Positions 28,160 to 30,772 of a stretch of DNA of 64,000 nt are shown here, piece after piece (position 1 is the stretch's first letter; the number at the start of each line of letters is the position of its first letter). The notes below the pieces were generated by a model, which saw only the letters and a list, made by a program, of their open reading frames with translations, searched no databases and was not told the DNA's origin. This DNA comes from Pleurostoma richardsiae (Eukaryota; Ascomycota; Sordariomycetes; Calosphaeriales; Pleurostomataceae): contig JANBVO010000001.1 in the NCBI GenBank assembly GCA_030052745.1, positions 2,108,001-2,172,000 of the forward strand, written 5' to 3'. The translations under genes were made by a program, and so were the position numbers.

Positions 28160-28757
28160 CTACCTATTGTTGACCTCCCTGATATACGAGTTCAATTTTC
28201 GCTCAAAGATCTCGCACCGTATCGGCATTTCCAGCTGGTAGAACGGGTTCTTCATGACGTAGTCCGCATACAGTTCATAGATCCTTCTTGTCGTGACGTC
28301 CAGGTTGGCCTGCGTTGTGTCTGTAAAAAGCAAGAACTTGGTGCCGGTCATGGTGTTGAAGCACTGCAGCCGGAAGTTCTCCGTCTCCATCACCTCCAGC
28401 CCGGAGGGCGGTTCCGGCCGGCTGGGAATGCCATTCGGCGCAGCCGGTGCTGGGGCTTGTTTTACTGGATTCAGCCTTGCAGTGATGGCATGAACACTAC
28501 TCCGTGTAAGCTTGAAGTACGATTGGGTGCTTCGTCACCAAACTCTGCAGTAGAATGACGCCTCTTACTTACCCATGGAACGTGCCCGCGAGCACCAGGT
28601 AGTCATTAGAGTTGAGCTTGTTCAGGCCACCTTCGTGGAAGTTGCGGTTATAAATGAGACCTCCAGCCTTATTGATTATCATAAGAGCGAAGACAGCCCT
28701 GTAGGGAGATGAGTACAGTGTCTCGACTGAAACAGTGAGAGGACGTAAAGCTCACAT
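28160..28757 (-). CDS. trs23: TRAPP subunit Trs23/TRAPPC4, start codon split by an intron
   Basis: A longin-like core subunit of the TRAPP tethering complexes, which act as exchange factor for Ypt1/Rab1 in ER-to-Golgi traffic. Three exons: 28757-28756 (the AT of the start codon, plus leader upstream), 28698-28573 and 28496-28160, giving 154 residues. The first intron (28755-28699, GTGAGC...CTACAG) interrupts the ATG as AT|G. Splicing yields MAVFALMIINKAGGLIY, the conserved N-terminus of the family. Without splicing the ATG is followed directly by TGA. The second intron is 76 nt. The C-terminal part is clear Trs23: FRLQCFNTMTGTKFLLFTD and YELYADYVMKNPFYQLEMPI. The next in-frame ATG (Met7) would remove the first beta strand. 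Confidence 0.9.
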
Positions 28758-30215
28758 CTTATCGTTGACGGCGGAGCTTTACCGGCCCCTGTCGCTGCCC
28801 GCAGAATGAGAGCCTTATCAGAAGCAGCAGTAAAGCAAGCTACTGCTATATCTGGTAGGTGAAGAGCCCAACTCGCAGTGACGCCAGTCAACCTGTGAAC
28901 TTTCTTTTGCGTCTTCGGGCAGAGTTGTGTGGCTTTGCCGTACGAATATCAACAAGCAGAGTGAGCTCAGCGTCAGGATCTCCCCGAGCTGTTTTGTCGC
29001 GTATATCTCTGATTGTCACCCCCTGAAGTGTCCTGTTAGTCAAAATCCCCCACCATCAGGGTTGAAAGAAGAACGGACCGGGCTTGTAGGAACGGCAAGC
29101 ACTCCTACAGCCTGTCCGCCAGGAAAAGCACCCCCACAGTGCGGACCTTGAAGAGCTTGACAAGCAGCCTTCTGCTGGTAGGCTTGCGGCGGGCAGTCTG
29201 CTTCATAATCGTCAGTTGATATCATCGGACAGCAGTTCTCAACGATGCGACGCTGGCTTCAGGACAGAGACAACGGGGAAAGTTGGTGGATGCTCAATCT
29301 CGGATGAATTGGCGACCAGACAGAAGCATCGGAGCAATAACTAACGCACCTTGCGAATGGATGTACTTTATCTTCTCACAGCATCTAATTCGAAAGAATG
29401 AGAGCTTGCTTCAGTTCGCAGCTCAAGTATCAAGCTGCCCCTTTCGACGTATGAGGTTCGGGTACGTGTGATGAGGTACTCGTGGCCCAGGCTCCCCCCG
29501 CAAAACCGAGGGTGGTGTAAATAACTGGCTGGGAATTCAAGGATACCCAGTACAACTTAGTTACCTACCTACCTACCTACTGAGACCTGTGAATGCTGTA
29601 GGCGCTGAAGCAGTAACAGGTCCAATAACAAAGATGATTGGAAGGTACAGATAATTAAAGCAGTCAGCTAGTATGCATGTATACACGTGGTCTAGTTCAT
29701 TAGTATAAGTACCTTGGATTTTGCAAGTTGGTTAGAGTTGCGCCGTGCTCGAGCTCATACTCTAGTGGCTTATTTGCACCGCCCAAAAAGGGAATAACCA
29801 CACTATGGGATGCACAGGTGGGTGTGATTACCCCGGTACCCTAAGCCTAAACGGGTGGCCTCCACAGGCCAAAATCCTCCGTACGTGGCTTTGAGGCTCA
29901 ACTGCTACCGTTCTCTTTTTGCCCCACAGCATCTCCGAAGCTTCGTCTTGGGAGCCTTAACCTCGACGACCACGTGAGCAGCTCGACTTCCTCGCGGCGC
30001 GAACCCTCTGCTGGGTTCCATCATAGGGTGCGCTTTTCTGCGGGAGCTGAGTGGAAGTAGAATTCGCGATCCCGCGCCTCTCAGTTGAACGCTCTCGGCA
30101 TCCTCGCTGTCTCTCAGCTCGGCATCAGCATCCCGCGCGTCCCTTCCTCCCCGTCTCCCTCTCCTAACGACAGCCGACATCTCATCTCTTCCCCTTCGTA
30201 CCGCAAACGCCCAAC
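28758..30215. other. Intergenic region upstream of trs23 and rpb4
   Basis: Divergent 1.46-kb region, A/T-richer than the flanks from about 29270 to 29760. It contains a CTAC tetranucleotide run at 29562-29580 and a TCCGTACG element near 29878. A 61-codon minus-strand frame at 29040-29225 (MISTDDYEADCPPQAYQQ) has four Cys and could be an exon of a small protein, but no signal-peptide exon or splice partner could be found. No gene is supported. Confidence 0.45.
29562..29580 (+). repeat. CTAC tetranucleotide repeat
   Basis: About four to five tandem copies of the unit CTAC/ACCT in an A/T-rich intergenic segment. Confidence 0.8.
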
Positions 30216-30772
30216 ATGTCGAGCCGCCCAAACTACCCCGCGACCTCGCGGCCGAAGCCGCCGCCCCCGGGCGAGGAGGAGGCCGGTTCGGTGCTGAAGC
30301 TCGGGGAGTTCGAGGACGTGGACACGCTGACGCTGTCTGAGGCGGCGCTCGTCATCAACGCGCTGCTGGCGAAGCGGCGCAACGACCGCAAGAACCTCAA
30401 CGAGACGGAGATCCTTGCTAAGACCATCGACTACCTCGACGCGTTCTCGCGGTTCAAGCAGAAGGAGAACGTCGAGGCCGTGGAGCGCCTGCTCAGCTCG
30501 CACAAGCAGCTGAGCAAGTTCGAGAGGGCGCAGCTCGGTGCGTTCCTTCCCCATAGGTCCTTGCCATTCGTTAGATCAGACATGTGCTGCGACCGCCATG
30601 TCGCGACTGAGATTTCGAGCTGTTGGGCAGAACTCGCTAACCCAGGGCGGCAGGCTCGCTCTGTTGCGATAGCGCCGAGGAGGCAAAAACGCTCATTCCG
30701 TCCTTGGCGGACAAGATTACCGATGAGGAGCTGCAGGAGCTCCTTGACCAGATCGGCAAACTCATGTCCTAG
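30216..30772 (+). CDS. rpb4: RNA polymerase II subunit Rpb4
   Basis: Rpb4 forms the Pol II stalk with Rpb7 and supports initiation, mRNA export and decay. Exons 30216-30537 and 30654-30772 flank a 116-nt intron (donor GTGCGT, branch CTAAC, acceptor CAG) and give 146 residues. The HRDC-like fold is seen in LSEAALVINALLAKRR, KTIDYLDAFSRFK and, across the join, FERAQLGSLCCDSAEEA, followed by IPSLADKITDEELQELLDQI at the end. The N-terminal Pro-rich stretch (RPKPPPPGEEE) is an extension over the core. A reading without splicing would run into an unrelated Arg-rich tail, which supports the intron. The gene faces the membrane-protein gene tail to tail. Confidence 0.95.

Follow-up and report, generated by a model that had tools for sequence, protein, structure and literature searches.

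Can an intron that interrupts the initiation codon of a gene act as a switch on its translation? The question is raised by trs23 (28757-28160, minus strand) in the 64,000-nucleotide stretch of Pleurostoma richardsiae contig JANBVO010000001.1 that was analyzed here (the window). Its start codon is split AT|G, and RNA that keeps the intron reads AUG-UGA, from which the original prediction had concluded that splicing may gate production of Trs23. On the evidence of the sequence, it is highly probable that the start-codon intron is removed constitutively and that the unspliced AUG-UGA form would give no Trs23 from that AUG.

The gene model comprises three coding pieces and two introns, all on the minus strand, and encodes a protein of 154 amino acids. 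Exon 1 contributes the AT of the start codon at its 3′ end (28756..28757), in a context with A at −3 (AAG-AUG). Intron 1 (28699..28755; 57 nt, GTGAGC...CTACAG) is followed by exon 2 (28573..28698), which supplies the G of ATG and then runs from Ala2 to the GG of Gly43. Intron 2 (28497..28572; 76 nt, phase 2, GTAAGT...GAGTAG) separates it from exon 3 (28160..28496), which extends to a TAG stop and completes the protein. Joining AT to the G at 28698 yields ATG-GCT and the reading MAVFALMIINKAGG. With intron 1 retained, the frame reads M-stop-ALRPLTVSVETLYSSPYRAVFAL; the intron length is a multiple of three, and the UGA straight after the AUG is the sole in-frame stop within it. On this model, the first coding intron of trs23 is a phase 2 intron inside the initiation codon. 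The predicted AT|G split was thus confirmed by letters, coordinates and frame, as was the AUG-UGA of the intron-retained RNA by letters and frame.

The identity of the protein was established by homology. It matched Sybindin (PF04099) with an E-value of 1.1e-51 and 175.1 bits (cut-off 25) over residues 3-150, and its best solved relatives were 2j3t_D, 2zmv_A, 7b6d_D and 3cue_A (E 3e-32 to 2e-24), which we take to be mammalian, fly and yeast chains. Two TRAPPC1-type chains matched far less well (3e-8 and 4e-8). The chains 2j3t_D and 2zmv_A are labeled subunit 4 and 3cue_A the 23 kDa subunit, while which subunits the 7b6d entries represent (for 7b6d_D, the 23 kDa subunit) is our assumption. Because of the Sybindin match, and because the best solved relatives are Trs23/TRAPPC4 chains, the gene is, as judged by homology, the orthologue of yeast TRS23 (TRAPPC4) of the TRAPP complex, in agreement with the name first given to it. 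In yeast, Trs23 is an essential TRAPP subunit. A genome search recovered one further Sybindin locus, presumably Bet5, with the N-terminus MTVFSFYIFDRHS; it has a contiguous MTVFSF start without a split start codon. Protein scans for trs23 relatives gave 41 pattern stretches in prokaryote genome contigs and 12 in viral contigs, 0 of which were confirmed in either set.

Because exon 2 opens with G-GCT straight after the CTACAG acceptor, a Met immediately preceding Ala2 requires that the exon upstream of it have AT as its last two letters. Alignments with 3cue_A, 2j3t_D, 2zmv_A and 7b6d_D all start at residue 1 on both sides; taken alone, the N-terminal stretch was significant for 3cue_A only (50.5 bits, i-Evalue 1.8e-12) and not for 2j3t_D, 2zmv_A or 7b6d_D (i-Evalues 1.5, 1.6 and 180, respectively). 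Splice sites were ranked against 73 heuristic introns, 9 from the window and 64 from regions picked for ATGTRAG; the search for these introns was seeded with consensus sites, and L001-L003 and the overlapping regions L048 and L090 were left out. Over the 1.5 kb between this acceptor and the divergent Rpb4 gene there are two AT|GT sites, at 28755 and 30178. The donor at 28755 scored 9.0 (57.5th percentile), and no other donor from 29100 to 28573 exceeded the 10th percentile; the site at 30178 scored 1.8, under all 73 reference introns. The intron 1 acceptor stood at the 98.6th percentile (top 2%) and the intron length at the 26th. In dinucleotide shuffles of 28699-30216, ATGTRAG occurred within the right distance range from the acceptor in 20 of 3,000 cases, and an AT|GT donor with a score of 9.0 or more occurred at the right distance in 13 of 3,000; an AT|GT donor so suitably spaced is more than chance would be expected to supply.

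Upstream of the ATG, by eye, the frame is shut by an in-frame TAA (28781-28779), with seven open codons counted. The next ATG lies at 29056, 299 nt off, and the intervening 296 nt before the start (28758-29053, minus strand) are free of ATG, a stretch equally clean in 42 of 5,000 mononucleotide shuffles. This fits a 5′ leader with the transcription start inside the stretch. As a whole, the sequence evidence favors a real AT|G junction, with a GT...AG intron splitting the start codon and the frame supported by homology. The candidate branch point, CTCAT, begins 15 nt from the 3′ end of the intron and departs from the CTRAY present in 78% of the 73 heuristic introns, and for this reason intron 1 may splice below average.

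The stop that follows the AUG is explained by the donor. When a phase-2 intron that opens with GTRA is retained, the frame always runs xxG-TRA, and hence AT|GTGA becomes ATG-TGA. Intron 2 of trs23, also phase 2 and with GTAAG, reads CAT-GGG-TAA if retained, the same automatic stop, whereas a GTATGT donor after AT| yields none, such that AUG-stop is not general to AT|G introns. The start-stop of trs23 would accordingly be a by-product of AT| plus a GTRA donor and no dedicated element, and because the donor sequence dictates the stop, AUG-UGA is in itself no sign of a regulatory switch, which leaves the regulatory reading weak. The idea that a built-in start-stop is rarer still than an AT|G intron is not supported given this arithmetic, and the excerpted text of PMC2911113, in which the same stop is published for phase-2 GTGAGT and GTAAGT introns, also goes against it. 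GTRA donors were present in 52 of the 73 reference introns, and 16 of 21 phase-2 reference introns would stop at once if retained, both counts coming from a set biased upward. A donor-agnostic set drawn from the window only (11 introns with noisy boundaries) had GTRA in 3 and an immediate stop in 1 of 4 phase-2 introns; it goes against a near-universal stop in this genome and leaves the GTRA rule intact.

What retained RNA could still produce depends on the next AUG, which is the in-frame Met7 codon (28680..28682, minus strand), 75 nt after the first and in a poor context (CTT-AUG-A). Barring read-through of the UGA, the most that retained RNA could yield is a protein without residues 1-6. We propose that intron 1 would be constitutively spliced out, giving a normal trs23 mRNA that begins AUG-GCU. 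Any unspliced RNA, reading AUG-UGA, would make no Trs23 from that AUG and would probably be lost via nonsense-mediated decay, with re-initiation at Met7 at best.

Introns at start codons have been described in Yarrowia lipolytica, a distant comparison for this fungus. As excerpted, one report lists 47 Yarrowia genes in which the lone A of the start codon makes up the entire first coding exon (A|TG) and notes that a phase-2 GTGAGT creates an in-frame stop whatever the intron size (209 of 1,083 introns, to which GTAAGT adds 11); first introns were retained more often than downstream introns, and retained introns mostly contained a stop, making them likely decay targets (PMC2911113). Excerpts of a second report set apart 42 start-codon introns, cut at their 5′ end immediately behind the A, T or G, as a class that is spliced with high efficiency; they also state that splicing efficiency was highest for introns near the start codon and that genes with near-start introns had the highest expression and lowest variability across 12 conditions (PMC13309789). 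Like trs23 intron 1, the start-codon introns are spliceosomal and lie at or inside fungal initiation codons, and the phase-2 GTGAGT introns bring an immediate in-frame stop if retained. The differences are that the 47 genes split A|TG rather than AT|G (PMC2911113, as excerpted), that the 42 pool all three cut positions (behind A, T or G) and the excerpted text gives no separate figure for AT|G (PMC13309789), and that, in the same excerpted material, the introns of Yarrowia have a greater length (a median of 196 nt) and a branch point lying only ~1 nt away from the acceptor motif. Both the start-codon position and the built-in stop are therefore already described in Yarrowia. On balance, our analysis of this published behavior leans towards efficient splicing while leaving room for retention. 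Start-stop elements such as AUG-stop upstream open reading frames (uORFs), for example those derived from GCN4 uORFs (PMC11375166, as excerpted), likewise have an AUG directly followed by a stop, but the trs23 AUG is the gene's own start and AUG-UGA would exist solely in a hypothetical unspliced RNA.

Against this background, it is very unlikely that stress- or nutrient-controlled retention of intron 1 shuts off Trs23 translation through AUG-UGA. Such control could draw on an AUG in −3 A context that meets UGA at once and is preceded by no ATG for 296 nt, on the non-consensus branch point and, from excerpted sources, on the greater retention of first introns in Yarrowia (PMC2911113) and on yeast GCN4 uORFs, whose start-stop versions inhibit re-initiation more than the native ones (PMC11375166). 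AUG-UGA is, however, automatic given AT| plus GTRA, the intron 1 donor is ordinary and its acceptor strong, and the start-stop adds little, since retention of intron 2 would likewise halt translation at once. A regulated on/off gate for the TRAPP subunit, in which low re-initiation at Met7 perhaps gives a trimmed Trs23, is a shade less likely again. The proposal that splicing gates Trs23 production is accordingly unsupported here: the stop is automatic and near-start introns in Yarrowia splice best (PMC13309789, as excerpted), although first introns there are kept more often than later ones (PMC2911113, as excerpted).

Two other readings dispense with the split start altogether or move it. In one, intron 1 goes unused and translation begins within exon 2, at Met7 (MIINKAGG), or a short form arises by leaky scanning or re-initiation on retained RNA. 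This is again highly improbable: although Met7 is in frame with the first AUG and requires no intron, its context is poor, the aligned relatives have an equal six-residue length ahead of it, and the second Sybindin locus begins MTVFSF contiguously, hence AVFAL looks coding. In the other, which we regard as extremely unlikely, the same acceptor is spliced to a different exon farther upstream that carries its own start, giving a longer Trs23 N-terminus. The strong intron 1 acceptor could pair with other donors, and the transcription start and leader introns of trs23 are not fixed by sequence; yet the aligned relatives begin at the Met of MAVFAL, no further donor above the 10th percentile is present in 28756-29100, and no second plausible AT|GT lies within 1.5 kb.

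The frequency of AT|G starts in this genome was surveyed with the pattern ATGTRAG-CTRAC-YAGG, which gave 115 matches versus 44 for the reversed pattern used as control. The 100 of 115 matches listed contained 96 distinct donors, all of which were examined (99 scored matches, three doubled by overlapping regions), using the nearest acceptor per donor only. Five of the 96 (L004, L071, L098, L012 and L041) were coding-like downstream (score at least 10) but scored low, under 4, on the upstream side. L004 is internal, with ankyrin downstream and an upstream side that resembles an ankyrin repeat by eye; L071 is also internal, with a Zn-cluster domain just upstream; and L098, which encodes DUF7025, is probably internal, since its frame is open upstream and contains an ATG there. 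L012 had no Pfam match on either side of its putative intron. L041 (1001, plus strand) is a possible second AT|G start, with an in-frame stop 21 codons upstream and, over the 20 codons inspected, no ATG in frame; its downstream frame had no Pfam match. No clear second AT|G start was therefore found among the 96 donors listed, with L041, L012 and L098 as candidates, which fits AT|G starts being uncommon in this genome. The earlier statement that AT|G introns are rare agrees with this limited survey (0 clear among the 96 listed), although the required CTRAC branch point makes the survey blind to introns of the trs23 type: it would miss trs23 intron 1 itself and cannot measure its class.

Within the window, trs23 is flanked by Rpb4 (PF03874; 30216-30821, plus strand), divergent and about 1.46 kb away, and by a convergent gene for a VWA-domain protein (PF13519; 26780-27879, plus strand), which we read as Rpn10 and whose frame ends ~280 nt past the trs23 stop. 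The acceptor of trs23 intron 2 (GAGTAG|T) is very weak, at the 1.4th percentile of the 73 heuristic introns. If inefficient trs23 splicing occurs at all, intron 2 may be the likelier place for it.

The main value of the trs23 AT|G intron is practical and concerns gene annotation. By its own statement, as excerpted, the gene finder Tiberius is unable to predict spliced start codons (PMC11645249). A gene finder limited in this way would probably start trs23 at Met7, a likely misannotated start, and drop six residues. The locus also illustrates a simple rule: whenever an AT|G intron whose donor is GTRA stays in the RNA, the reading is AUG-stop, so that failed splicing would give no protein from that AUG.
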